Of a stretch of DNA of 22,030 nucleotides, positions 6,669-20,219 are shown piece after piece. The notes beneath the pieces are model-generated. The model had not been told where the DNA came from and did not search any database. It was given only the letters and a program-made list of their open reading frames with translations. The DNA is taken from assembly GCA_001799195.1 (NCBI GenBank), contig MGSU01000010.1:1-22030 (forward strand), read 5' to 3'. Position numbers and translations under genes: made by a program. Source of the stretch: Deltaproteobacteria bacterium RIFOXYA12_FULL_61_11 (GTDB taxonomy: Bacteria; Bdellovibrionota_F; JAHFAK01; YA12-FULL-61-11). Within the stretch, counting starts at the first letter, position 1, and each line of letters starts with the position of its first letter.

Positions 6669-7940
6669 CTAGATGCGATGTTTTCGGGGCAGCTCCGCCG
6701 GATCGAAGACCCTGACCGTTCCGAAGACCCCGTCATAGCCTGCCTTCAACGACACCTGCCCGCGGCGTAGCCGGGCAATACCTTCGGCGAGGAGGGTGCC
6801 TCCGTGGCGGCCTAGCTCCTCGGGTGAGACCTCGAGCAAGAGCTGGAGTTCCGAGCCGAAGAGGGCAAGCAGCCGGTGATATTCGGTGTGCACGGTGAGG
6901 CTGGAGGAGCCTTTGCCGAGCATTTCGGCCAAGAGTTCGGGGAGGGCGCAGAGAGAGCGGTGTGGCCGGGCCGTAGGGGGCAGATGCTCGGCTCGGCGAT
7001 CGGCCAGGGTCTCCACCCTCGAGGCGACCCCTAACGTTACGCAGCGACCGCAGATGGGACAGAGACCGTTCGCCGCCGTGGTTTCCTCCGGCGATAGCCG
7101 TATTCCACAGGATCGATGGCCATCATGGTGATACTTCCCTTCCTCGGGAAAGAATTCCAGGGTTTCGAGCAACCCCAGGCCGGTGCGAAGTGCGAGTCTG
7201 AGAGCGTCGAAGGACAGCTCGGTATCGAACAGCGTGGCCTCTCGCCCCAGCTTCGAAGGTGAGTGGGCATCGGAGTTGGAGACGAGGAGGTAGCGGTCGA
7301 GGAAGCTGCAGCGGCGGTTCATCGGAGGATCGCTGGAGAGGCCCGTTTCCACTGCCGTGACCTCACCGACGAGTTCGCCGTAACAATCCTCGAGGCGGTC
7401 GAAACCGGACTTGGAACCGAGAGCTGAGAACCAGGGAGTCCAAAGGTGCGCGGGGATGAGCATGGCCCTGGGCTCGACCGTCAGGAGCAGGTCGAGCAGG
7501 TCCCGGGACGAGAGGGAGACGATCGGTCTTCCGTCGCTGCGGAGGTTGCCGTAGGCCTCGAGGGCGAGAGAAAAACGTCTTGCCGAGGTAAGATCGGGTA
7601 GGAGGCAGAGATGATGGACCTTGTGCACGGTGCCGTCCTGTCGGTAGATCGTGCTGACCTCGGCTGTCGGCAGGAAGCGTAGCTCTCTCTCCGCCAGGAT
7701 CGGCGGCAGGTCCCGGACCGAGGGATCCCATCCGGGCGCGAGACGCAAGAGACCCCGTCCGTCCGGGAGCAGGCAGGTCTCGAGCTCGTCGAGCCAACCG
7801 GGATGCGTGCAATCCCCGGTGCCCAGCAGGGTGAGCCCCTTCTTACGCCCCCAGCGGGCGAGCTCGGGTGGCGTGAGGTCGCGGCTGGTAGCCCGGGAAA
7901 AATGCGAGTGCAGGTGCAGATCTGCCAAGTAGCGAGCCAT
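6669..7940 (-). CDS. PHP-domain endonuclease Q-like DNA repair protein
   Basis: This 423-residue protein starts with a PHP metal-binding site: ADLHLHSHFS (His9, His11), TGDCTHPGW (Asp43, His46), later HHLCLLPD, LIPAHLWTPWF (His165) and SNSDAHSP (Asp224, His226). A Cys/His cluster follows at about 275-300 (His275, Cys278, Cys294, Cys297, Cys300), then VTLGVASRVETLADR and a C-terminal GYDGVFGTV. This is the layout of endonuclease Q (EndoQ), which nicks DNA 5' of uracil, hypoxanthine or AP sites, first described in Thermococcales and present in some bacteria. Older annotations call the family 'phosphoesterase' or 'UvrD-associated'. The start has no strong ribosome site, only AGGA about 11 bases upstream, but the PHP motif begins at once, so it is probably right. 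It lies 74 bases after the Cys-rich regulator on the same strand and may be co-transcribed. Confidence 0.83.
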   Translation of the reverse strand: MARYLADLHLHSHFSRATSRDLTPPELARWGRKKGLTLLGTGDCTHPGWLDELETCLLPDGRGLLRLAPGWDPSVRDLPPILAERELRFLPTAEVSTIYRQDGTVHKVHHLCLLPDLTSARRFSLALEAYGNLRSDGRPIVSLSSRDLLDLLLTVEPRAMLIPAHLWTPWFSALGSKSGFDRLEDCYGELVGEVTAVETGLSSDPPMNRRCSFLDRYLLVSNSDAHSPSKLGREATLFDTELSFDALRLALRTGLGLLETLEFFPEEGKYHHDGHRSCGIRLSPEETTAANGLCPICGRCVTLGVASRVETLADRRAEHLPPTARPHRSLCALPELLAEMLGKGSSSLTVHTEYHRLLALFGSELQLLLEVSPEELGRHGGTLLAEGIARLRRGQVSLKAGYDGVFGTVRVFDPAELPRKHRI

Positions 7941-8014: not shown

Positions 8015-8815
8015 TCAATCCTTCACCCGGGGGGCGAGTGCTTTTTGGTAAAAGAGACAGTCGTTGCAGTTCGAGCTGCAACCGATGCTTCCGGGATTGA
8101 CCCGAGCCCGCAGGGTACGGCAATCATGTACCCGGGCTCTGTAGACGAGACAAGCACTGCAGGAGTGACGATCGAGACTGCAACGTTCGTTGAGTTCCCA
8201 GCAATGCTGGAAGGTGGAACGAAGGTGTTGGTAATACGCGCATTCGGCGCACTCCATGGTGCACCCGGTGGGCAGGGGGCCCAGGTGGCGGCGGAGTTGA
8301 TGACAATGGTCGGCTGAAGAGATGAGGACCAGGCACTCGCGGCAGCGGTGTTGTCGGCGCTCGTTCTTGCCCAGGAGCTCGTGGTAGAGCCAACAGCTCG
8401 AGGTCCGTTCGAGCAGGTCCTGGAAATAGGCACAAGCTTGGCAGTCGAGTCGGCAGAATACTTTCTTGTGCCGGGTGTTGCGCCTCAGGAGGAAGCAGAG
8501 TTTCGACCCCGAAGAGCGGACTAGGCAGGAAGAGCAGTCGTGCAGGTCCGAGGTGTTCTCACGGTGATAGTCCCAACACGGAGACAGTGTCGCGAGGGGC
8601 TCAACGTGGCGGAGGCTGGCATGGGCTTGCAGCACCGAGGCCAGCTCCGGGCGTTTGTGGTGGGCGAGCAGGATGACTTCTGGCAGGGCGATCCGGTGAT
8701 GTTGGTGGTGGTTGAGGGTGTTGGACACGAGCTCGCTCTTGATCCAGCGAGACACGGTTGTTCTGGTGACCTCGAAGAGGGCAGCCAGTTCGACGGTCGA
8801 GAAGAAATAGCGCAT
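8015..8815 (-). CDS. HTH protein with three tandem seven-cysteine repeats, unknown family
   Basis: This 266-residue protein opens with an excisionase/MerR-like helix-turn-helix (FSTVELAALFEVTRTTVSRW, about 5-45). Residues 80-259 are three copies of one unit: C-W-x(12-15)-C-x2-C-L-V-x7-C-x2-L-R-x9-C-x3-C-x2-C-x2-[FY]-Q. The cysteines are 80/94/97/107/121/125/128, 141/158/161/171/185/189/192 and 205/219/222/232/246/250/253, plus Cys212, 22 in all. Spacing inside units is invariant apart from the first gap. There is no signal peptide, so these Cys are cytoplasmic and could bind Fe-S clusters, zinc or heme. It is the last gene after the redox complex, starting 10 bases past the hmcD-like stop. 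No ribosome site is visible, suggesting translational coupling. I do not recognise the repeat as a named domain. A redox or metal-responsive regulator of the operon is my inference. Confidence 0.8.
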   Translation of the reverse strand: MRYFFSTVELAALFEVTRTTVSRWIKSELVSNTLNHHQHHRIALPEVILLAHHKRPELASVLQAHASLRHVEPLATLSPCWDYHRENTSDLHDCSSCLVRSSGSKLCFLLRRNTRHKKVFCRLDCQACAYFQDLLERTSSCWLYHELLGKNERRQHRCRECLVLISSADHCHQLRRHLGPLPTGCTMECAECAYYQHLRSTFQHCWELNERCSLDRHSCSACLVYRARVHDCRTLRARVNPGSIGCSSNCNDCLFYQKALAPRVKD

Positions 8816-8825
8816 CGAGGAGAAA

Positions 8826-8981
8826 TCAGTGCTTGGGTGCAGGTTTTGGGGGGATGGGTGGGTCCTCCTCGTCGCCCTCGAGCAGGTAACGCCAGAAGGC
8901 GACCGAGGCCAGCAGGAAGAGCAGGGAGAAGAGGTATCCGGCAGCCTTGATGCTGGTCATGTACTCGTGGATCGTCTCCAT
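8826..8981 (-). CDS. hmcD: Small single-span membrane subunit, HmcD-like
   Basis: This is a 51-residue peptide starting METIHEYMTSIKAAGYLF. One membrane helix (about 15-34, LFSLLFLLASVAFW) is followed by an acidic, Pro-rich tail ending PPKPAPKH. GGAGGT lies three bases before its ATG, the upstream hmcC-like stop is 12 bases away, and the next gene starts 10 bases after its stop, so it is a real operon member despite its size. In the D. vulgaris hmc operon the gene after hmcC is hmcD, an equally short hydrophobic protein of unknown function. CcoQ/FixQ-like subunits look similar. The assignment rests on size, topology and position, because such short peptides give little sequence evidence. Confidence 0.72.
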   Translation of the reverse strand: METIHEYMTSIKAAGYLFSLLFLLASVAFWRYLLEGDEEDPPIPPKPAPKH

Positions 8982-8993
8982 GGGACCTCCGGC

Positions 8994-10208
8994 TCAGGGG
9001 TGTTCGGGATAGGTTGGATCCGGCCGCAGGATCGGCATGCGCAGGGCGGCGGAGCGGAAGACCAGGACGATCAGGAGGATGATCGAGAGTGTGACGGCCA
9101 GCTCCATCCAACTGGGGAAGTAGCGTTGCTCGCAGGGGAGTTGCCAGTTGAAGGCCACCAGCGAGACGTTGAGTCGGTTGAGCACCACGCCGAGCACGGA
9201 GAGCAGGGCGGCGAGCTTGACCTGCCGCGGACGTCGATTGCGGGCCGCCGAGGCGAAGAGCAGGCAGGGTACGAGGACGAAACCGAGCACTTCGACGAGG
9301 AACCAGGAACCATACGCGGTGGGCAGATAGGTCCAGTTCCCGTCCGAGATCACACCGAGGATCTTGAGGGCGAAATAGCTGAACATGACGATCGCCCCGG
9401 CCCTGGCCAAGCCTATGGTCAAGGCGTCGAAGTCGGTGCCGGGATCTGCGCGGTGGTGGAGGGCTCGGTGGGAGAGGGAGCCTTCGACTACGATCATGGA
9501 GAGGCCGGCAATGATGCTGGAGATGAAGAAAAACACCGGCAGGTAGGGGGAGTACCATAAGGGGTGCAGCTTACCCGGGGCGATAAGGAACAGTCCGCCG
9601 AGCGACGACTGGTGCATGGTGGACAGGATGACCCCGAGGATGGTCAAGGGAATGGTCAGGTGTAGGATCACGGCCCGCAGTTTCCTCCAACCCAGCCACT
9701 CGAAGGCGGGAGGGGTTGCTTCGACGAAGAGGACGGTGCAATAGGTCGCCACGCAGACGGCGACCTCGAACATGACCGAGGAGAAACCGGCCTGGACCAC
9801 GAAGGGGTAGGGTAGGCGCCAGGGACGGCCGAGGTCGAAGAGTAGCGCCAGGACGACGAAGGCATAGCCCAGGAAGGCGGTCAGGATGGCCGGTCGTACG
9901 ATCGGTTGGTAGGCCTTGAGCCCAAACAAGTACACGGTGGAGGAAATGACGTATCCTCCCGCGGCCAGCGCGACCCCGCAGAGCAGGTCGAAGCCGATCC
10001 ATAGGCCCCAGGGGTTGTCGTGGGAGAGATTGGTCGCGGTGCCGAGGCCTTGGCCGAAGCGCACGACGGCAGCCACTCCGCCTGCCAACAAGATCATCGC
10101 GGCCACGGCGTTGAAGGGGGTCAGCAGCGAGCGTAGGTACTCCCGAGCGCCGAGGCCGAAGAAGAGTTTGTCCTTGATCCAGCAGGTCGTCGGTGCGGTC
10201 TGGCTCAT
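8994..10208 (-). CDS. hmcC: NrfD/PsrC-family integral membrane quinone-interacting subunit, HmcC-like
   Basis: This 404-residue polytopic protein has about ten hydrophobic helices and NrfD-family marks: FDLGRPWRLPYP after helix 4 and STMHQSSLGGLFLIAP after helix 6. NrfD proteins sit in the inner membrane, exchange electrons between quinones and a periplasmic ferredoxin-like partner, and are proposed to move protons. That partner here is the HmcB-like protein encoded just upstream. The two genes overlap by four bases (ATGA), with GGAGG before the ATG, showing coupled translation. Length and position correspond to HmcC or DsrP. It contains no cysteine-rich cluster site, as usual for the family. 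Direction of electron flow (quinone reduction or oxidation) cannot be read from sequence. Confidence 0.88.
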   Translation of the reverse strand: MSQTAPTTCWIKDKLFFGLGAREYLRSLLTPFNAVAAMILLAGGVAAVVRFGQGLGTATNLSHDNPWGLWIGFDLLCGVALAAGGYVISSTVYLFGLKAYQPIVRPAILTAFLGYAFVVLALLFDLGRPWRLPYPFVVQAGFSSVMFEVAVCVATYCTVLFVEATPPAFEWLGWRKLRAVILHLTIPLTILGVILSTMHQSSLGGLFLIAPGKLHPLWYSPYLPVFFFISSIIAGLSMIVVEGSLSHRALHHRADPGTDFDALTIGLARAGAIVMFSYFALKILGVISDGNWTYLPTAYGSWFLVEVLGFVLVPCLLFASAARNRRPRQVKLAALLSVLGVVLNRLNVSLVAFNWQLPCEQRYFPSWMELAVTLSIILLIVLVFRSAALRMPILRPDPTYPEHP

Positions 10209-11101
10209 GCTCCCTCCTTGGGCTGTTGGCCTTGACGCTCGTTGTGCCGCTTGAACAGCCAGGTGCCTCCGAGGAAGGCCGGCCAGAGGGCGATCACCAC
10301 CGGGATGAAGGATAGGAAGCCTCCGGTCTTGGCGCAGAGCGGCTCTTCGCCCAGGTTCGTCGGAAGGCCGACCTGGTCGAAAGGCACCGGAGAGAGATAG
10401 AGCCAGTTGGTGCCGCCTACCTCATGTTCGCCATAGACGTGGTGAAGGTAATTCTCTGGTTTTGCTGCAATGCGGTTGCGAGCCCGTTCCAAGAGTTCGG
10501 TGCGTTTCCCGAAGACCAGAGCCTCCATGGGACAGGCCTCGACACAGGCCGGACGTTTGCCGGCCAGGATGCGCTCGTGGCACAGGGTGCACTTGCGCAC
10601 GCGAGGGGTGAGCGGATCATGGTACTCGTAGGCCGGGATACCGAAGGGGCAGGCGACCATGCAGTACCTGCAACCGATGCACAGGTCGGGGTTGTAGATC
10701 ACCGCGCCTTCGCGGGTCTTGGTGAAGGCCCCGACCGGGCAGGCCGAGGCACAGGCCGGCTCTTGGCAGTGGTTGCACTGGAGCTTCCTGTGGACCGCCG
10801 GCGCGTTCGCTTGCGGGTAAGTGTTGACCACGGTGTAGGCAGACTCGGTCGTCCGGCGGAGGTGCTGCAAGACGGTCGGATCATCGAAGGCCTGATCAGG
10901 TGCCGGCAAGTCGTTGGCTTCGTTGCAAGCCTGCTCGCAGCGGCGGCAGCCGACGCAGAGGCTGAGGTCGCAGAGGACGCCGAAACTCTCGGGGTAACCG
11001 AGGGTCCCTTTCTGGGCGGCTCTCGTCGTGCGAGGCAGGGCAAGACCGGCGGTGGCGCCCCCGAGGGCGCCCAGGAACTGTCTGCGGGTGAGCCCCATCA
11101 T
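10205..11101 (-). CDS. hmcB: Tat-exported four-cluster ferredoxin subunit, HmcB/DsrO-like
   Basis: The 298-residue product starts with a twin-arginine signal, LTRRQFLGALGG at 4-15, and a hydrophobic stretch ending near ALPRTTRAA, so it is exported folded. Four Cys groups could hold four [4Fe-4S] clusters: CDLSLCVGCRRCEQAC (44-59), CNHCQEPACASACP (109-122), CIGCRYCMVACP (141-152) and CTLC...CVEACP (171-191). Residues about 261-283 form a C-terminal membrane anchor, as in HmcB. It should wire the 16-heme cytochrome to the NrfD-type subunit. Two adjacent ATGs (11101 and 11098) are possible starts. The hmcA stop overlaps them, and GAGG lies four or seven bases upstream. Cluster number is inferred from the cysteine pattern. 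Confidence 0.9.
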   Translation of the reverse strand: MMGLTRRQFLGALGGATAGLALPRTTRAAQKGTLGYPESFGVLCDLSLCVGCRRCEQACNEANDLPAPDQAFDDPTVLQHLRRTTESAYTVVNTYPQANAPAVHRKLQCNHCQEPACASACPVGAFTKTREGAVIYNPDLCIGCRYCMVACPFGIPAYEYHDPLTPRVRKCTLCHERILAGKRPACVEACPMEALVFGKRTELLERARNRIAAKPENYLHHVYGEHEVGGTNWLYLSPVPFDQVGLPTNLGEEPLCAKTGGFLSFIPVVIALWPAFLGGTWLFKRHNERQGQQPKEGA

Positions 11102-12642
11102 CGCACCTCGTCCTGTTGGGGGCGGCGGCGGTGACAGTCCTCACAGCCGGTATGCCCGAGGTTCATCCGTTGGTGGCAACCAAGGCATTGCTGGTGCAGC
11201 GCGCCGAGCAACCCCGGACGGCGATCCTCGTCGTCCTGACCGTGGCAGGCCGCGCAGCGAGCATAGTGCAAGGCCTGGCTGGGTTGTTGGTGGTGGTGAC
11301 AACCGCTGCACAGGGTGGCCAGCTCGGGGTGGAAGTGCTGGGCCAGACTGCTGGCCTCGAGCTTCTGGAGAAGGGTCTGGATGATCTTGCGGTGCGGGAA
11401 GATCGATGGCTCGTACTCGGCAGCGAGCAGGTCGAGCCGGAGCGTTTCGGGCAGGGCGTCGGACGAGAGGTCCTGGAACGCCGCGAGCAGGGCCCCGGTC
11501 CTGGAAGAGGAGGTGGTAGGAGCAGACTCATCTGAAGAGACCTCGGTCACGCCGGGGCCACCGTCATGGCAGAGCCCGCAGGAGGTGGTCGGGAGTTCCT
11601 GGAGCGGGCGATCGTGACAGCCCCGGCAGGCGGGTTCCTGCTTCTCCAACTCATGGCACCCAACACAGGACCGGGGATCTCTCGGAGTGTGGTGAGCCGT
11701 GGCGAGTTTGACCGTTTGGAGATCCCGCCCCTTGCCGAGTGCATGACAGACGACGCAGCGTTCGAGAGTGTCGTGATGACAAACCCGACACGTCCCTTCT
11801 CTGCTCTCATGGGCGGCGTGGTTGAAACCGACCGCGGCCATGGCGCTGCTCATGGTGTGGATGGTGGCGACCTCGGGTTGCCCACGTAGGAGGCGCGGGA
11901 CCGTGGTCCAGTCCCGAGGAGTGGTAGAGGAATGACAACCCGCACAGTCTACCGGGCCGGATTTCTTCTGCAGGCCGAGGCGCTGGAGGTGGCAGGTCAC
12001 ACAGTTCTGGTGTACAGCCTGCCGCAGGCCGCGGACAGTCGGGGTGGAGGCTTCCTCGTGGCATTCGCGGCAGGAGCTTTCCTTGCCGGGGGCCTCGTAG
12101 AGAGCCTTGCGCTGGTCATCATAGCGGTGGTGGCAGGAGGCGCAGCTCGATCGGCCGAGCTCGGGTTGCAAGACCGCCTCGTGTTGCGCATGGCGGTGGC
12201 GATCGAAGAAGAGGTCGCGAGCGTCCTTCCCGAGGGCGTTGTTGGCGAGCGAATGGCAGTCGCCGCAGGCCGTGGTCGGACCGGCGGAGAGGTTCTCGGA
12301 AAGGCGGTCCTCGTGACACGTCATGCACTTGCCATGGGTTTCCGCGAGCGACGGGGCGACGGACTCCTCGGCCAAGGGCTGTTCGACAACCTGAGGAACA
12401 CCGGCAGCGTCTCGGTGGTGGCAGGAGTCACAGGGAGCGTTGCCGAGGGCCTTGGTATGGGCGTCGTGGTCGAAGAGCACGGCCGGGCGTTCTCCCTCGT
12501 GGCTGCTGCCCAGAATGAGTTTGCCGGCTTCGATCGCGGGCACGGTCGGGGGGAGGAGGCTCCCTACGGCGGCGATCAGGAAAGCGGCGACGAGCAGGGC
12601 GGCCAACAGGGTTCCGATCAGGGAGAGTTGTATGGTCCTCAT
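11098..12642 (-). CDS. hmcA: 16-heme high-molecular-weight cytochrome c, HmcA-like
   Basis: The 514-residue protein contains exactly sixteen CxxCH heme-binding motifs, with first cysteines at 71, 106, 126, 167, 191, 214, 233, 285, 296, 326, 339, 355, 445, 463, 486 and 500. HmcA of Desulfovibrio has the same number. A hydrophobic segment at 6-30 directs it to the periplasm. No clear AxA cleavage site is visible, so it may stay anchored. Many extra His residues (for example HDAH at 59-62, HRHAQH at 149-154) can serve as distal heme ligands. Twelve hemes lie before residue 360 and four after 444, separated by a heme-free, Ser/Thr-rich then helical stretch. It should receive or donate electrons with periplasmic cytochromes and pass them to the HmcB/HmcC pair. 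The gene starts four bases after the hmcF-like stop, with GGTGAGG upstream. Confidence 0.93.
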   Translation of the reverse strand: MRTIQLSLIGTLLAALLVAAFLIAAVGSLLPPTVPAIEAGKLILGSSHEGERPAVLFDHDAHTKALGNAPCDSCHHRDAAGVPQVVEQPLAEESVAPSLAETHGKCMTCHEDRLSENLSAGPTTACGDCHSLANNALGKDARDLFFDRHRHAQHEAVLQPELGRSSCASCHHRYDDQRKALYEAPGKESSCRECHEEASTPTVRGLRQAVHQNCVTCHLQRLGLQKKSGPVDCAGCHSSTTPRDWTTVPRLLRGQPEVATIHTMSSAMAAVGFNHAAHESREGTCRVCHHDTLERCVVCHALGKGRDLQTVKLATAHHTPRDPRSCVGCHELEKQEPACRGCHDRPLQELPTTSCGLCHDGGPGVTEVSSDESAPTTSSSRTGALLAAFQDLSSDALPETLRLDLLAAEYEPSIFPHRKIIQTLLQKLEASSLAQHFHPELATLCSGCHHHQQPSQALHYARCAACHGQDDEDRRPGLLGALHQQCLGCHQRMNLGHTGCEDCHRRRPQQDEVR

Positions 12643-12646
12643 CGCC

Positions 12647-13972
12647 TCACCCCCTCAACTCGTCGGGTATCTCCATCGCCTCGAGCAGGAGGTCGCTGAA
12701 GAACTTGACGTGCATGCCGAGCTTGTAATGCCCCACGATGTCCTCGATGCCGCTGTGGCAGTTATGGCAGGGGGTGATCACCGTGGTCGCGCCGGTGGCG
12801 GCCAACTGTTTGGCCTTTTCTTTATTACCGCGCACCCGCTCGGCCTTCCAGATCGGGCCGCAGTTGATCACGCCGCCGCCCGCGGCGCAGCAGTAATTAT
12901 GCTCGCGGTTGGGTTCGACGTCGCGGAAGTCTTCGCAGACGGCGTTCATGAGGAAGCGCAGCTTCTCGCCGAGTCCCAGGCCGCGCACGATGTTGCAGGG
13001 TTCCTGGAGGGTGATCGGTCCTTTGATTTTTTTGGCGATGCGGATACGCCCCGAGGTGATCAACTCATGATAGAAGTCTACGGCGTGGACCATGGGAATG
13101 GGTGGATGTAGCCAGCCCAGCCACTTAGGTCCGTCGTAGGCCGAACCGCGGAAGGCGTGGCCGCACTCGCCCATGACCACGCGCTTGACCTTGAGGCGCA
13201 GGGCCGTGTCCCAGTGCAGCCGTTCGACTCGCCCCATGATCTCGAAATCGCCGGAGAACATGGCCATATTACTGTTGTCCCAACCGTCGGTGGCCGGCAT
13301 GGTCCAGCTCATTCCTGCCACTGCCATGATCTGCGCCATGTTGCCTATGAGCTGAGCCAAGATCTTGGGCTCGGGGGCGATCACGGAATACATGATGTCC
13401 GCCCCTTCCCGCTCGAGAGGGATGGCGGCGCTGGGGACCTCGGACTGGGCTTCTTCTTCTTGCCACAACAAGGTGTCGATCCAGTCGTTCTGGCCGACCC
13501 ACATCTGATTATAGGCGGCCGAGTGCGAGTTGACGGTGTCTTGCAGGTAGAGGGGTACGATACCGAGCAGGTGGCAGAAACGCCGGATGGTCAGGAGCAG
13601 ATAGGCGATATCGATGCCGAACGGGCAGTACATGCTGCAGCGGCGGCAGACATTGCATTCGGTGAAGGCGATCCTGGCCATGGCGCGGAGGTCGTCGTGG
13701 GTGACTGTGTCGCGCAGCTCGACCAGCTTGGCCATGGTCTCCTTGACCTTGCCGACCGGGGAGTATTCGGGGTCCTTGCGATTCGAGAGATACCAGTGGC
13801 ACGCCTCGGAGCAGAGGCCGCAATGCACGCAGGTCGCGAGATAGATCTTCAGCCTGGCTGCGGCCTCGGTGTCGAGGACCTGGTGGACTACGGCGGACAG
13901 CCGCTCGGGGGTGAGTTTCTGCAGCCCGCGTTCGAAGCCGGGATCGTCCACGGGGTTGCGGTGAATGGTCAT
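12647..13972 (-). CDS. hmcF: CCG-domain iron-sulfur protein, HmcF/TmcB/DsrK-like (HdrD family)
   Basis: This 441-residue cytoplasmic protein resembles the catalytic subunit of heterodisulfide reductase. Two ferredoxin motifs come first: CVHCGLCSEAC (Cys48/51/54/58) and CNVCRRCSMYC (106/109/112/116). The C-terminal cysteine domain has Cys326, Cys346, the pair Cys361-Cys362 in NYCCAAGGG, and CHNC (402/405), the non-cubane cluster pattern of HdrB/HdrD/DsrK. The motif reads CC-A and not CC-G. The first CCG-type region has only ECGHAFR (Cys270), as in single-site DsrK/HmcF/TmcB. It probably exchanges electrons with a thiol/disulfide or another cytoplasmic partner. The ATG at 13972 has GAGGAGG upstream. 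Reading further back to 14374 would overlap the cytochrome b gene and add unrelated sequence. hmcF and tmcB names are equally defensible. Confidence 0.9.
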   Translation of the reverse strand: MTIHRNPVDDPGFERGLQKLTPERLSAVVHQVLDTEAAARLKIYLATCVHCGLCSEACHWYLSNRKDPEYSPVGKVKETMAKLVELRDTVTHDDLRAMARIAFTECNVCRRCSMYCPFGIDIAYLLLTIRRFCHLLGIVPLYLQDTVNSHSAAYNQMWVGQNDWIDTLLWQEEEAQSEVPSAAIPLEREGADIMYSVIAPEPKILAQLIGNMAQIMAVAGMSWTMPATDGWDNSNMAMFSGDFEIMGRVERLHWDTALRLKVKRVVMGECGHAFRGSAYDGPKWLGWLHPPIPMVHAVDFYHELITSGRIRIAKKIKGPITLQEPCNIVRGLGLGEKLRFLMNAVCEDFRDVEPNREHNYCCAAGGGVINCGPIWKAERVRGNKEKAKQLAATGATTVITPCHNCHSGIEDIVGHYKLGMHVKFFSDLLLEAMEIPDELRG

Positions 13973-14004
13973 GGAACCTCCTCGGTGATGCCCTTCGAGC
14001 CCGA

Positions 14005-14652
14005 TCACCAGTCCTTGGAGTGGCGCACGGCGCCGAATTCGGCACCCATGTACATCCGGGTCAAGGGGAAGAAGAGCATGTGGCTGATCCTGGTGAAGGG
14101 CAGGAGCACCAGCAGCAATTCGGCCAACAGCACATGGAACAGGAGCGCCGGACGGTACTCGGTCCACTGGTGGGTGGCCAGGAACCCAGTGATGAAGGGC
14201 GCGGCCACGAGCAAGAGCAAGAGGTAGTCCCCGGCAGTGGTGACGTAGCGTACCTCCGGGCTGACGATGCGCCGCAACAAGAAGAAGAAACAGACCAACA
14301 GCACGATGACGGTCAGGGTGTCGGCCAGGGCCTCGGGGAGGGCTGGAGCGGTCAAGCCCGTGGCGCGTTCCCACATGACGAGGTGGGCGCGCAGGAAGAG
14401 CGGGAGGGCGAGGACTCCAATATGGAAGAGGAAGGAAAAGACGGTGAAGAAGGGGTGCATGCGCATGTTCCTGGCGCCGAAGGGCAGGACCCAGTGGAAC
14501 AGGGAACGCAAACCGTAATGGAGATTGAGATAGGGATAGACCACCTTGTCCTTCTTGGCCAGGAGGAGCATGGCGGCGATCCGACCTGCGGAACCGAAGA
14601 AGAAAATGAGTATCGCAGCGAGAGCCAGCGGTCCGGTCACGAACTCGTACAT
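14005..14652 (-). CDS. hmcE: Membrane cytochrome b subunit, NarI/DsrM-like (HmcE/TmcC)
   Basis: This 215-residue protein has five or six hydrophobic helices. Histidines suited to b-type heme ligation occur in LHYGLRSLFHWVL, FSFLFHIGVL and LLFHVLLAELLL, followed by FTRISHMLFFPLTRMYMG. The last of these is the C-terminal signature of the NarI/DsrM/HmcE/TmcC group. It should anchor the CCG subunit encoded next to it and connect it with the menaquinone pool. Its start begins MYEFVTGPLA, and AAGGAGG lies nine bases before the ATG. The stop is 32 bases before the hmcF-like start. It is second in the operon after tmcD. Heme number cannot be fixed from sequence alone. Whether it is nearer HmcE or TmcC needs a tree. 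Confidence 0.87.
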   Translation of the reverse strand: MYEFVTGPLALAAILIFFFGSAGRIAAMLLLAKKDKVVYPYLNLHYGLRSLFHWVLPFGARNMRMHPFFTVFSFLFHIGVLALPLFLRAHLVMWERATGLTAPALPEALADTLTVIVLLVCFFFLLRRIVSPEVRYVTTAGDYLLLLLVAAPFITGFLATHQWTEYRPALLFHVLLAELLLVLLPFTRISHMLFFPLTRMYMGAEFGAVRHSKDW

Positions 14653-14680
14653 GCTACCGAGCCTCCTTGGAGGATTGGAT

Positions 14681-15955
14681 TCAGCCTCGCAGGGTCTTCA
14701 GGTCCACGACCTGCCGAATACAGTGTCCGCGCCGCATGCCCCGGACCAGAACCCGTTCTCCCGCGGGGTCGAAGCAGGGTGGGGCCAGGGTGTCGAAGCG
14801 GGCCGACCAGAGCGTTCCGTCGAGGGCCAGGGTCACGCCGTCCTCGACCTCGACCCTTGCCAGGACCTCGCGGCCGCCGGGACTGAAGAGGGGGTCCCAG
14901 GCCATCGCGAAGCGGTGGTCCCAGGGCTTGCCGTCCACGACGATGCCCCAGGTGCCGGCATCCCGGAACACCGCGGCCACGCGTTCCCCGGATGGAGAGA
15001 AGCAGGGAGTCAGCACCAGGTCGCTGAAACCGATCGGCCAGGGAGCGTCGTCGACGGCCACGGTCCAGCGGCCGAAGTCATGGGCCACCACGGCGGCGAA
15101 GCGGTTATTCCCGGCAGGAGCCGCCACTCTCCACAATTGATGGTAGCGGCCCTTCCAGAGGGGTTGGCCGTTCTCGGCGAGAGTCCACATACCCCCCAGG
15201 CGGACAGGAGCCAACACCCGGTCATAGGCGGGATGGAAGAGTGGTTCCCACACACAGCCGAAGCGCTGTTCCCAGGCCTTGGCGTTCTCGGCGATGCCAT
15301 AGGTCTGGTCGAGGTGCCGGACCTCGGCGGCGACCGAACCGTTGGCGGGGTGGACACAGACCCCCCAGGTGTTGATGAAGCGCGCTTCCCAGGGGGTCCC
15401 GTTGACCGCGATGGTCCAGGTGCCGGCGAAGAAACCGGGAACGTCGGCTTCTTTGAGGGCCGTGGTCTGGACCGTGGCGGCCACGGTTTTGCCGTCGGCG
15501 CTGATGGCCAACTCGCGGAGAGCCGTGAAGCTCTCTTCCCATGGGGTGCCATTGACGGCCACGCTGCATTGGTTGTCGCGGGTGATCTGCACGGCCACGG
15601 TTGAACCATCGGCGCTCAGAACGGGGTTCCAGGCGAAGTCGAAACGTTCCTCCCAGGGCTCTTGGTCGAAGACCACGGTCCAGGCGTCGTCCAGCTTTGC
15701 TAACCCGAAAACGCGATTGTCCGGGGTGAAACGCACCTGGCGGAGTTTCTCGAAGACCGTATCCAGAGCGCCGGTTTCTCGGCCGAGGCGGTATTCGTCG
15801 TCCTGTCTGCCGACCACGGCCACATGTTCGCCGTCCTCGCTCCAAGCCGTCTCGACGATGGTCCCCAGGGTTTCGGCCAGCGACGTGAGGTCTGCGATCG
15901 TCCGCTCTGCCGGGTGCCAATCCCAAGATGTCAGGACCGCTGTATCGATCGCCAC
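14681..15955 (-). CDS. tmcD: Tryptophan-rich beta-propeller protein, TmcD-like
   Basis: The 424-residue product consists of repeats of about 46 residues with a core like (P)WExxFxxxWxPxFSPDG. I count eight: PWEERF, PWEESF, PWEARF, AWEQRF, LWKGRY, PWPIGF, PWDHRF and LWSARF, each followed by a strand such as PLFSPGG or PVLSADG. About 20 tryptophans result. This matches TmcD, the tryptophan-rich fourth subunit of the Desulfovibrio Tmc complex, whose role is unknown. A seven- or eight-bladed propeller is likely. No signal peptide is present, so it should be cytoplasmic, next to the CCG subunit. It is the first gene of the operon, with GTG start and GGAGG four bases before it, and ends 28 bases before the cytochrome b gene. 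The presence of tmcD in front of a full Hmc set is unusual. Confidence 0.85.
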   Translation of the reverse strand: MAIDTAVLTSWDWHPAERTIADLTSLAETLGTIVETAWSEDGEHVAVVGRQDDEYRLGRETGALDTVFEKLRQVRFTPDNRVFGLAKLDDAWTVVFDQEPWEERFDFAWNPVLSADGSTVAVQITRDNQCSVAVNGTPWEESFTALRELAISADGKTVAATVQTTALKEADVPGFFAGTWTIAVNGTPWEARFINTWGVCVHPANGSVAAEVRHLDQTYGIAENAKAWEQRFGCVWEPLFHPAYDRVLAPVRLGGMWTLAENGQPLWKGRYHQLWRVAAPAGNNRFAAVVAHDFGRWTVAVDDAPWPIGFSDLVLTPCFSPSGERVAAVFRDAGTWGIVVDGKPWDHRFAMAWDPLFSPGGREVLARVEVEDGVTLALDGTLWSARFDTLAPPCFDPAGERVLVRGMRRGHCIRQVVDLKTLRG

Positions 15956-15986: not shown

Positions 15987-16026
15987 AAAATGGGAACGTT
16001 ATTATTGCAAAAAACCAAGAACTTGA

Positions 16027-16046
16027 GAAAAACCGATAGATTTTTC
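16027..16046. repeat. Inverted repeat at the operon transcription start
   Basis: GAAAAA (16027-16032) and TTTTTC (16041-16046) with an eight-base centre form a two-fold symmetric site just downstream of the predicted start of the redox operon transcript (about 16050). That is where a repressor would bind. It is AT-only and may also be chance. Confidence 0.35.
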
Positions 16047-16206: not shown

Positions 16207-17439
16207 ATGGTGAGGAAGCGGAGCGGTGACAGAGAGCTACCCCCGGCCGAGGATCGAGGTGCGGCGGAGTTGCAAAGCGCCCGGGAGCCGGGCGAGGTCG
16301 AGCACGAGTTGCGCGTCCTCTTCGATCATGTGCCGTGCAGTCTTGCAGTGATTGATCGTGATTACAACGTAGTGCGTTCAAATGCTCATTTCCGGCAGAC
16401 CTTTTACCGCAAGGGAGCCACGCGCTGTTTCGAGTTCTACAAAGGCCGGGGCAGGTCGTGCAAGAGTTGCCCCGCTCGTGAGGTTTTTCTCGATGGGGCG
16501 GTGCATCGCGAGGTGCAGAACGGAAGAGGAAGCCGAGGCCAGACCTTGCAGTACCTGGTCACCGCGGCCCCCTTCGATTACACCGGAGCCCAGGTGCGGA
16601 CCGTGATCGAGATGGCCCAAGACGTGACCGAGGTCGTGGAGTTGCGCCGCAGGCTCGAACAGGTCGAGAAGGAGAAGCTTGAGGCAGAGAGGCTTGCCGT
16701 AGTCGGGGAGACCGTAGCCGGGCTCGCCCACGGGATGAAGAATATCCTCATGGGGCTCGAGGGGGGGCTGTTCGTGTTCAAAGACGGTTTGGCCAAGAAC
16801 AACCCGGAGGTCCTGCAACGGGGCTGGGGTATGATCGAGGGCAACGTGGCCCGGATCTCGTCCTTCGCCAAGGAATTCCTCGGTTTCGCCCGCGGAGCGA
16901 AAGCTAGGGCGCGGTTGGTCGATCCGAACGCGATCCTCGAGGAGGTCGCAGCCCTGTATCGGCCGATGCTGGACCAGGCCGGCATTGCCCTGCAGTTGGA
17001 GGCCGGGCAGGTGCTCGAACCCATGGCCGTGGATCCCGAGGGCTTGCACACCTGCCTGACCAACCTGCTCTCCAACGCCGCGGACGCTTGCCTTGCCGGG
17101 GAACGGAAACACCGCAGGATCACGCTCCGCTGCGAGGAGGAAGACAAGATCGTGCGCTTCTTCGTCAAGGATAATGGAGTAGGCATGGATGCCGAGGTCC
17201 GGCGCAAAGCCTTCACCAGTTTTTTCTCCACGAAACCCGTGGGCAAGGGCACGGGTCTGGGCTTGCTCACGACCCGCAGAATCGTGGCCGAACACGGCGG
17301 TCGGGTGGAGGTCAGCTCCGCTCGAGGGCGGGGCAGTACCTTCGTGCTGGTGTTCCCACGAGCACGGTTGCCCGTACCAACGAGCGAGACGACCACAGAA
17401 GAAAGAAAGGTAGGATTGCACGAACAGCATGACCAATGA
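16207..17439 (+). CDS. PAS-domain histidine kinase with Cys triad
   Basis: This is a 410-residue soluble kinase. One PAS domain (about 33-143, VPCSLAVIDRDYNVVRSNA) carries Cys74, Cys85 and Cys88 in the pattern C-x10-C-x2-CP. A short coiled linker leads to the phosphorylation helix AVVGETVAGLAHGMKN (His175), then the ATPase domain with N box NLLSNAADA (286-294), G1 DNGVGMD (322-328) and G2 GKGTGLGL (346-353). The H box reads HGMKN where most kinases have HE[LI]RN. No membrane segment is seen, so it senses a cytoplasmic redox or ligand signal. The start ATG has GAGG directly in front, and the next codon GTG would do equally well. The stop overlaps the frame of the response regulator, whose own ATG is 11 bases later. 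The gene is divergent from the redox operon. Confidence 0.9.
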   Translation: MVRKRSGDRELPPAEDRGAAELQSAREPGEVEHELRVLFDHVPCSLAVIDRDYNVVRSNAHFRQTFYRKGATRCFEFYKGRGRSCKSCPAREVFLDGAVHREVQNGRGSRGQTLQYLVTAAPFDYTGAQVRTVIEMAQDVTEVVELRRRLEQVEKEKLEAERLAVVGETVAGLAHGMKNILMGLEGGLFVFKDGLAKNNPEVLQRGWGMIEGNVARISSFAKEFLGFARGAKARARLVDPNAILEEVAALYRPMLDQAGIALQLEAGQVLEPMAVDPEGLHTCLTNLLSNAADACLAGERKHRRITLRCEEEDKIVRFFVKDNGVGMDAEVRRKAFTSFFSTKPVGKGTGLGLLTTRRIVAEHGGRVEVSSARGRGSTFVLVFPRARLPVPTSETTTEERKVGLHEQHDQ

Positions 17440-18045: not shown

Positions 18046-19827
18046 TTACCCCGGCCGGTGTTTGGGCAGGACCAGCTTGAAGATACTGCCCTGACCCGGG
18101 GTCGAATCGAATTCCACCGTGCCGCCGTGCTCGAAGAGGACCTTGCGGGTGGTCAGCAAGCCCAGCCCCGTGCCGTGTTTGCCTTTGGTGGTGAAGAACG
18201 AGGTGAAGACCCGCTGCTTCACGTCGCAGTCCATGCCAATGCCGTCGTCTTGCACGCTGAGGATCACGGAGTCCCGGCGATCCTCGAGTCCAAGCGTGAT
18301 CTCGTTGCGGTCCCGGGAACTCATCCGGCAAGCATCGAGAGCGTTGGAAACCAGGTTGACGAGGCTCTCGTGGAGCGCTTCGTAACAGAAGGGGAAGGGC
18401 TCGACTTTCACGGGCGAGGCTACGGTCAGGGTGATGTTCTCGGTGGCTGCCGCGGAGCGGAACAGAGAGGCAACGTCTTCGAGCAAGGCTGCCGGGGCGT
18501 GGGGCGCGAAGGAGAGTTGCTCGCCCTTGGAAAAGGCCAAGAGGTTCTTGGTTAGGGTAGAGATCCGCTCGACATTGCGTTCGATCATGGCCCAACCCTC
18601 GTTGGCCTTCTGTTCGTTCCCGCGTTTCCGGCCGGAGGCGCAGACGTAGAGGCCACCTTCCAACCCGGTGATGATGTTCTTGATACCGTGGGCGAGGCCG
18701 GCCACGGTCTGACCGACCACGGCCAGGCGTTCGGCTTCCAGCTTCTCGGCTTCCATGCGTTTGAGCGCGCTGAGGTCCTGGACCAGGAAGGCCCGGCCGA
18801 GCATGCCCTCGCGCTCGTCGAGGAGCGGGGTCACGACCAGCCGGACGGGAATCGGGGTCGAACCACGGGGTTTCAACTTGGTCTCCAGTTCCAGGGAGGC
18901 GGTGGGGTTTGCCGCCAACCGGCGTTGCACCGTCCGCTCGAAGAGGGTCAGGGGTAAGCGATGGCCGCGCAGGGGGCGCTGCCGCGGGCCGAGGAGCTCG
19001 GCAAGGGCGGGATTGAGATCGATCACCGTACCGGCGGCATCGGTGAGCAGGATCCCGTCCATACTGCTCTCGACCAGTTTGCGATGGAGCAGGGAGGCGT
19101 GGGCGAGTTCCCGTTCCAGGGCAATGGTCTCGGTCAGGTCAAGGGCCATCTCGAGGACGTGGTTCGGCTGCTCTTCCCCGCGGTCCAACGGCATCGAGGT
19201 GACGAGGTAGTGCACCGGCGAGCCGTCGCTGGAGGTGCCGACGTGCGTTTGGGTGTGCGGTTGGCCGTCCTCGAAGGTCAGGGCGACCGGGCATTCGGAG
19301 CAACGCTCGCTGCACTGCTTGAAGGTGCTGTAGCAGGTCGCGCCGTCCTGGAAGGGGAAGGTCGAGCGGAGCCGCTCGTTGGCCCGAACGATGCGGTAGT
19401 CCCGATTGATCACGGACAGGAAACAGGGAGCTTGCTCGAAGAGGAGTTGGTATTCGCGCTGCAGGCGTTTGATCTCGGTAACGTCGGTGGCCATCTCGAG
19501 GACGTGCCGGACCTTGCCGGCGGCGTCGAGGACCGGGGCGAAATACACGATGTAATAGGTAGGATGGCCATGTCGGTCGATGCCTTGCTGCTCGGTGACA
19601 TGGACGTGGCCGTCCTGGAAGGCGCTCAGGGCGAGGCAGTCGGGGCAGGGGGAGTTGCGCCCCTTCTGGAGTTGGTAACATTTCGCGGAACGGGCCGGAC
19701 CGAAGATCGCGGTGAAGCGGTCATTGGTCTCGATGATGTCGAGCTCCGGATCGATGACGGCAAGGCTGCAGGGGACCTGTTCGAAGAGCAGGCGATAGAG
19801 TCGATCGGCGGAACGGCCGGGGGTCAT
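18046..19827 (-). CDS. Triple-PAS histidine kinase, paralogue of the first kinase
   Basis: This is a 593-residue soluble kinase. PAS1 (about 8-118) has Cys50, Cys61 and Cys64; PAS2 (about 124-233) has Cys165, Cys176 and Cys179, both with the spacing C-x10-C-x2-C found in the first kinase. PAS3 (about 247-355) lacks the triad. The helix AVVGQTVAGLAHGIKN (His380), N box NLVSNALDA (491-499), G1 DDGIGMD (527-533) and G2 KHGTGLGL (550-557) follow. The kinase core from EKLEAERLAVVG onwards is nearly the same as in the kinase at 16207-17439, so the two arose by duplication, with the extra PAS domains gained or lost. Its ATG overlaps the stop of the response regulator upstream by four bases (ATGA). 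The open frame runs further back to 20286, but that part lies over the regulator gene and is not coding. Confidence 0.92.
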   Translation of the reverse strand: MTPGRSADRLYRLLFEQVPCSLAVIDPELDIIETNDRFTAIFGPARSAKCYQLQKGRNSPCPDCLALSAFQDGHVHVTEQQGIDRHGHPTYYIVYFAPVLDAAGKVRHVLEMATDVTEIKRLQREYQLLFEQAPCFLSVINRDYRIVRANERLRSTFPFQDGATCYSTFKQCSERCSECPVALTFEDGQPHTQTHVGTSSDGSPVHYLVTSMPLDRGEEQPNHVLEMALDLTETIALERELAHASLLHRKLVESSMDGILLTDAAGTVIDLNPALAELLGPRQRPLRGHRLPLTLFERTVQRRLAANPTASLELETKLKPRGSTPIPVRLVVTPLLDEREGMLGRAFLVQDLSALKRMEAEKLEAERLAVVGQTVAGLAHGIKNIITGLEGGLYVCASGRKRGNEQKANEGWAMIERNVERISTLTKNLLAFSKGEQLSFAPHAPAALLEDVASLFRSAAATENITLTVASPVKVEPFPFCYEALHESLVNLVSNALDACRMSSRDRNEITLGLEDRRDSVILSVQDDGIGMDCDVKQRVFTSFFTTKGKHGTGLGLLTTRKVLFEHGGTVEFDSTPGQGSIFKLVLPKHRPG

Positions 19828-20219
19828 GGTTTCGCCTCGCTGAGCAGGGTACCGACCAGGTCGATCAATTCCGGGAGGTTGACCGGTTTTTCCAGGTAGT
19901 GAGTCAGTTCCACCCCGGAGATGTTGGCCGGCGTGTTTCCGGACTTTCCTCGCAAACCCATGCCGCTGATGACGATGACCGGTGGTTGCTGCCCCGGAGG
20001 GAGGGAATGGAGCTTCCGGTACAGCGACAATCCGGTTTTCTCGGGCATCAGGATATCGAGGCAGACCAGATCCGGTGAAAAGTCTTTGAGGGCGCGGAGT
20101 CCCTCGACGTGGCTCGTGGCACAGGCGACCTCGTAGCCCTGGTCCTCCAAGGCTGTGGAAAGATAGAGCAAGATGTCCTGTTCGTCGTCGATGAGGAGAA
20201 TGCGCTGAGGTTTCTTCAT
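19824..20219 (-). CDS. Single-domain response regulator (CheY-like)
   Basis: This 131-residue stand-alone receiver domain has Asp11-Asp12 in LLIDDEQD, phosphoacceptor Asp55 in CLDILMPEKTG, Ser85 in VIVISGMG and Lys111 in YLEKPVN. No output domain is present, so it signals by protein contact or relays phosphate. It precedes the triple-PAS kinase, with a four-base overlap, which makes the pair a two-component system read in the order regulator-kinase. GGAG lies seven bases before the ATG. The gene is divergent from the AAA+ regulator at 20395. Confidence 0.9.
   Translation of the reverse strand: MKKPQRILLIDDEQDILLYLSTALEDQGYEVACATSHVEGLRALKDFSPDLVCLDILMPEKTGLSLYRKLHSLPPGQQPPVIVISGMGLRGKSGNTPANISGVELTHYLEKPVNLPELIDLVGTLLSEAKP

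Follow-up and report, generated by a model that had tools for sequence, protein, structure and literature searches.

The window analysed here, a stretch of DNA of 22,030 nucleotides, carries an electron-transfer operon on its minus strand, with the gene order TmcD-TmcC-TmcB-HmcA-HmcB-HmcC-HmcD-regulator. The first gene, TmcD (14681..15955; NF045725, E 4.1e-134), and the membrane anchor TmcC (14005..14652; NF045723, E 8.9e-84) scored above their model cut-offs, as did the ferredoxin-like subunit HmcB (10205..11101; NF045715, E 1.2e-127) and the NrfD-type membrane subunit HmcC (8994..10208; NF045714, E 6.4e-168). The remaining subunits scored under theirs. A TmcB-like Fe-S/CCG subunit (12647..13975, start codon approximate) reached 681 bits against a cut-off of 735 (NF045724, E 3.9e-205, scan of 12650-13900), an HmcA-like multihaem cytochrome (11098..12642) was just under its cut-off of 400 with 389.6 bits (NF045713, E 2.3e-116), and an HmcD-like small membrane protein (8826..8981) had 32.7 bits for a cut-off of 34 (NF045712, E 5.3e-8). 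The operon (8994-15955) mixes Tmc-type genes (TmcB, TmcC, TmcD) with Hmc-type genes (HmcA to HmcD), and so do the loci of genomes G021 and G337.

The gene behind HmcD, an open reading frame at 8015..8815 on the minus strand with an ATG start, encodes the 266-aa regulator that is our subject; only 10 bp separate HmcD from its start codon. An earlier reading had made it the last gene of an electron-transfer operon. Its membership in the operon stands. That it comes last is likely, yet a PHP-type gene on the same strand (6669-7940) begins 74 bp past it with no predicted terminator between, which leaves some doubt. Upstream of TmcD we noted a speculative operon promoter (16029-16001), overlapped by the direct repeats TTGCAAAAAACC and TTGAGAAAAACC, 18 bp apart (16001..16034, minus strand). 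One promoter-like site was found upstream of the operon against 0.8 expected by chance; promoter and repeats are within chance expectation, and the repeats are a candidate operator only. Adjoining the operon are PAS histidine kinase genes (16207-17439 and 18046-20034) whose PAS domains carry a short three-cysteine stretch, such as CFEFYKGRGRSCKSCPA; these domains are possibly redox-active.

Domain make-up of the regulator

The N-terminus of the regulator (residues 1-58; 8642..8815, minus strand) scores 15.1 bits against HTH_17 (PF12728) in a Pfam scan, under the cut-off of 27. The genome also encodes a paralogue, 33% identical over residues 2-132 (E 1.9e-14), that matches HTH_17 at E 1.2e-13. 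Most relatives tested are above the HTH_17 cut-off; that of PF00376 (MerR family) is reached by two relatives and not by the regulator. In the structural model the HTH region has a pLDDT of about 77-95. Residues 3-53 are predicted to fold like BldC (6amk), with Z 8.3 and an rmsd of 1.1 over 51 residues at 28% identity; Xis and MerR-type domains come next among the matches. Because of the paralogue's HTH_17 score and the fold match to BldC, the N-terminus is a BldC/excisionase/MerR-like winged HTH, in agreement with the N-terminal HTH proposed from the sequence. The likeness to this class lies in the N-terminal DNA-binding fold; BldC and Xis themselves have no cysteine unit.

Behind the HTH lie three tandem seven-cysteine units. 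The rule for the unit, written as the regular expression C-W-x(12-15)-C-x2-C-L-V-x7-C-x2-L-R-x9-C-x3-C-x2-C, matches the regulator exactly three times, at residues 80-132 (unit 1; 8420..8578), 141-196 (unit 2; 8228..8395) and 205-257 (unit 3; 8045..8203), all on the minus strand, and profile searches support the same units, which are spaced 61 and 64 residues apart. The rule accounts for 21 of the protein's 22 cysteines; the additional one is C212. The cysteines stand out because non-cysteine identity between the units is just 18-27% (aligned last 39 residues of each). Cysteine spacing alone also finds three matches in the regulator; among 200,000 shuffles of its residues, two gave one match and none gave more. 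The repeats described in the sequence-only reading thus withstand a shuffle control, and they recur in 16 genomes.

Conservation of the seven-cysteine unit

We ran unit profiles against whole genomes. In a wide sample of 386 genomes, full-length matches occurred in five (G000, G055, G288, G326 and G390). Searching the small phyla of those five added G466, G469 and G470, and a search of the phylum of G024 (395 genomes) yielded eight more genomes with full units. Altogether the unit is present in 25 copies in 19 proteins from 16 genomes and at least six phyla.

In every family protein with an intact N-terminus, an HTH precedes the unit or units; the family protein of G055 is interrupted by a contig end. 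The regulator likewise carries the pattern CW, CxxC, C, CxxC behind its HTH. Proteins with an HTH and one unit are about 140-165 aa long, two units are found in G288, G466 and G469, and three in the regulator. A further architecture, with an HTH, one unit and a receiver-like domain, is that of the own-genome paralogue, three proteins of G390 and one of G470. Response_reg matches the paralogue at E 0.0019, and its receiver domain is therefore degenerate.

Among 23 non-redundant units, there is no variation in the first cysteine, the tryptophan after it or cysteines C2, C3, C4, C6 and C7. C5 occurs in 21 of the 23 and is missing from the first unit of both G055 and G469, so the invariance of all seven cysteines, which had been claimed from the regulator's three units and holds there, narrows to six across the relatives. 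The next most conserved residues are a glutamate and a tyrosine (19/23 each). Because of this recurrence and these invariant residues across genomes, the unit is an old, separately conserved domain and no quirk of one genome. A tree of the units was largely unresolved, with the regulator's units on very long branches. We also considered an internal duplication within the unit (C-W..CxxC versus C..CxxC) and rejected it, as 38 of 150 shuffles did as well in the profile comparison.

The unit is covered by no model in Pfam or NCBIfam, and a profile search of PDB sequences gave nothing significant; a strong match to a cysteine-repeat family of known, unrelated function, which would have spoken against a new sensing domain, was thus found in none of the three. 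Likewise, there was no match to the unit among plasmids, none to the unit pattern in viral contigs and none to the family in a protein scan of a genome-contig collection, and our literature search turned up no relevant account of the domain or of a matching regulator. We conclude that the seven-cysteine unit is a genuine conserved domain without a name, and that the regulators carrying it form an undescribed family. Its proteins are probably annotated merely as 'helix-turn-helix protein', since no Pfam or NCBIfam model exists for it.

The claim of a new domain needs one qualification, however: the front half of the unit resembles the two-CW domain NF045718 and short CW proteins. In NF045718 proteins there are two CW pairs and, at the close, a CxxC. 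Each seven-cysteine unit has one CW, and after its corresponding later cysteine comes F, Y, H or R. The likeness to NF045718 and the MerR-linked CW proteins consists of the CW start and the CxxC followed by hydrophobic or aromatic residues, while the two CW pairs per domain and the other spacing set NF045718 apart. Scanned with NF045718 (curated cut-off 35 bits), the regulator's three units gave no match at E values up to 10. A profile comparison of the two gave a probability of 83 and a score of 29.3, against a mean of 9.8 and a maximum of 17.3 when non-cysteine columns were shuffled, and a mean of 19.7 and a maximum of 29.0 when cysteine blocks were reordered. In a larger test, the best likeness was between the front half of the unit (CW..CxxC-L-V-Y..C) and the second half of MerR-linked or short CW proteins (score 39.7); non-cysteine shuffles never reached the two-CW score and block-order shuffles did so in 1-8 of 100. 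Because of the latter, we grade homology as probable only: the front half of the unit and the two-CW domain probably share a half-module. Two-CW domains are also carried by a histidine kinase and by MerR-type regulators, in keeping with a sensory function. Two loci, L083 4270-5908 and L084 5059-5358, encode short proteins that are two-CW-like and bear CKDCLVY-type motifs; those of L083 are in tandem with a transposase-like gene between them.

Structure prediction gave a pLDDT of 58 for the unit modelled alone with AlphaFold and about 75, a moderate confidence, for unit 1 within the full-length model. The fold search that matched BldC listed no match for the cysteine part and is barely a test of that part.

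Genomic context and proposed function

The context of the family is most telling in a gene module found in several phyla, which comprises a macro-domain protein, an HmcE-like cytochrome b, a TmcB/HmcF-like Fe-S protein fused to a receiver, a PAS histidine kinase and a separate receiver. The own-genome paralogue, in divergent orientation, adjoins the macro-domain gene of such a module (L032), where further electron-transfer genes are also found. In G470, from another phylum, an HTH-unit-receiver gene lies directly upstream of the macro gene of the same module (L040). In G253 and G390 that place is taken by an Rrf2 gene (PF02082, E 2.4e-33 and 1.2e-30); the module of G337 has one at its opposite end (E 4.6e-34). 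Each of these three Rrf2 proteins has three clustered cysteines. The HTH-unit genes of G390 are elsewhere in its genome than the Rrf2-bearing module. In G007, G374 and G287 the module is present with neither an Rrf2 nor an HTH-unit gene in the stretch read. No other finding says as much about function as the alternation of Rrf2 and the seven-cysteine family in one module, which points to a similar task and not to common descent.

Passages of PMC10924467 describe rrf1 and rrf2, carried by the hmc locus of Desulfovibrio vulgaris, as regulators of hmc expression, and Keon 1997 is cited for the D. vulgaris hmc regulators there and in PMC9338935. Rrf2-type regulators occupy a place equivalent to the regulator's both at the Desulfovibrio hmc locus and in the macro/HmcE/HdrD-like modules of G253, G390 and G337. 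Members of this class (Rrf2, IscR, NsrR, RirA; PF02082) are, as the regulator is predicted to be, small DNA-binding regulators with cysteine ligands. They differ in belonging to another HTH family with three cysteines in a loop, whereas the regulator has seven in repeated 52-56-residue units; PF02082 is absent among its Pfam matches.

What our analysis yields directly is the domain make-up, its conservation, the operon position and the alternation with Rrf2 in one module. The best reading is that the regulator works like an Rrf2 Fe-S regulator while being unrelated to it by descent, and its family probably does the work of Rrf2-type regulators in their stead. We favour, with some reserve, a one-component redox- or metal-sensing regulator of its own operon, in which the seven-cysteine units would hold a metal centre. 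In such a scheme a cytoplasmic one-component transcription regulator would bind DNA through its BldC/excisionase-like HTH, as homology and fold suggest, with the promoter of its own TmcD-TmcC-TmcB-HmcA-HmcB-HmcC-HmcD operon as the likeliest site. The metal centre of each unit would be thiolate-bound and either an Fe-S cluster or zinc. Redox conditions, oxidants or the supply of metal could shift the state of this centre and so alter DNA binding or the oligomer state. The outcome would be tuned expression of a membrane electron-transfer complex, as by Rrf2-type regulators at equivalent loci. Unit conservation, the HTH, the operon position, the Rrf2 alternation and the redox neighbours of relatives speak for this scheme; the pLDDT of 58 for the unit, the loss of C5 in two units, members without a redox neighbour and a weak link to TmcC speak against it.

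The many conserved cysteines of a cytoplasmic regulator of redox genes would also suit a metal-free thiol-disulphide switch, in which cysteine pairs oxidise to disulphides and DNA binding changes with them. Seven cysteines per unit pair unevenly, however, and a CxxC-C layout is more suggestive of metal ligation; we consider such a switch improbable. Structural zinc sites typically have CxxC pairs, and the units could be structural zinc domains for oligomerisation or partner binding, with control exerted through that partner, such as a kinase/receiver protein or an Fe-S subunit of the complex. A copy number of one to three suits an interaction module, a degenerate receiver domain follows the unit in relatives, and PAS kinases and receivers adjoin the genes. 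Yet the alternation with cysteine-cluster Rrf2 proteins and the mostly redox neighbours favour sensing, and we regard a purely structural role as rather unlikely, though the most credible of the alternatives.

Outside the module, two family copies of G390 adjoin multihaem cytochromes, the family genes of G055 and G469 adjoin a c554-like cytochrome, and HmcB-like and, weakly, HmcC-like genes lie near that of G527. No redox neighbour was evident for the family genes of G326, G563 and contig 235 of G390, and at the genome level the co-occurrence with TmcC is weak (2/5 unit-bearing genomes versus 23/386 overall). Both facts would fit a regulator whose target is elsewhere, its place after HmcD being incidental and the family a general class of anaerobic regulators. 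The 10-bp spacing to HmcD and the recurrence with TmcB/HmcF-like modules in two phyla argue against this, and we give it little credence beside a sensing regulator of its own operon. In all, the first reading from the sequence is supported in so far as it describes a DNA-binding protein with an unnamed, conserved multi-cysteine domain tied to electron-transfer genes; its single cysteine site, Fe-S or zinc binding and redox or metal sensing are putative.

The HTH and two-unit gene of G288 and G466 lies inside a magnetosome-type cluster (L033, G288 C100, 7715-15776; L034, G466 C47). A scan of G288 found two MamB/MamM-like CDF transporters there (E down to 1.5e-87, under curated cut-offs), together with a MamE-like protease, a NapH-like ferredoxin protein and CXXC-rich small proteins. 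It is possible that the two-unit protein is a magnetosome regulator, and its recurrence in such a cluster suggests that the seven-cysteine sensor may serve iron biomineralisation. More broadly, and only tentatively, the unit may be an undescribed metal or Fe-S sensor domain of a one-component class in many anaerobic phyla, which replaces Rrf2 at Hmc/Tmc-type complexes and serves other iron-redox systems, including magnetosome clusters. To our knowledge, the control of Hmc, Tmc and related complexes in anaerobes is poorly known outside Desulfovibrio, and a second regulator family that stands where Rrf2 would, and is unrelated to it, offers directly testable targets. The novelty is moderate, since cysteine-based one-component regulators are already a known kind.

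In the modules at L032 10303-17997, L040 4615-9145, L051, L052, L056 and L057, an ADP-ribose-type macro domain forms part of an electron-transfer operon. In two related genomes, a one-unit regulator is followed by a protein of ~365 aa (L075 2681-3775; L076 7260-8372) with a Tat-like signal and possibly, as judged by eye, a metallo-beta-lactamase fold.
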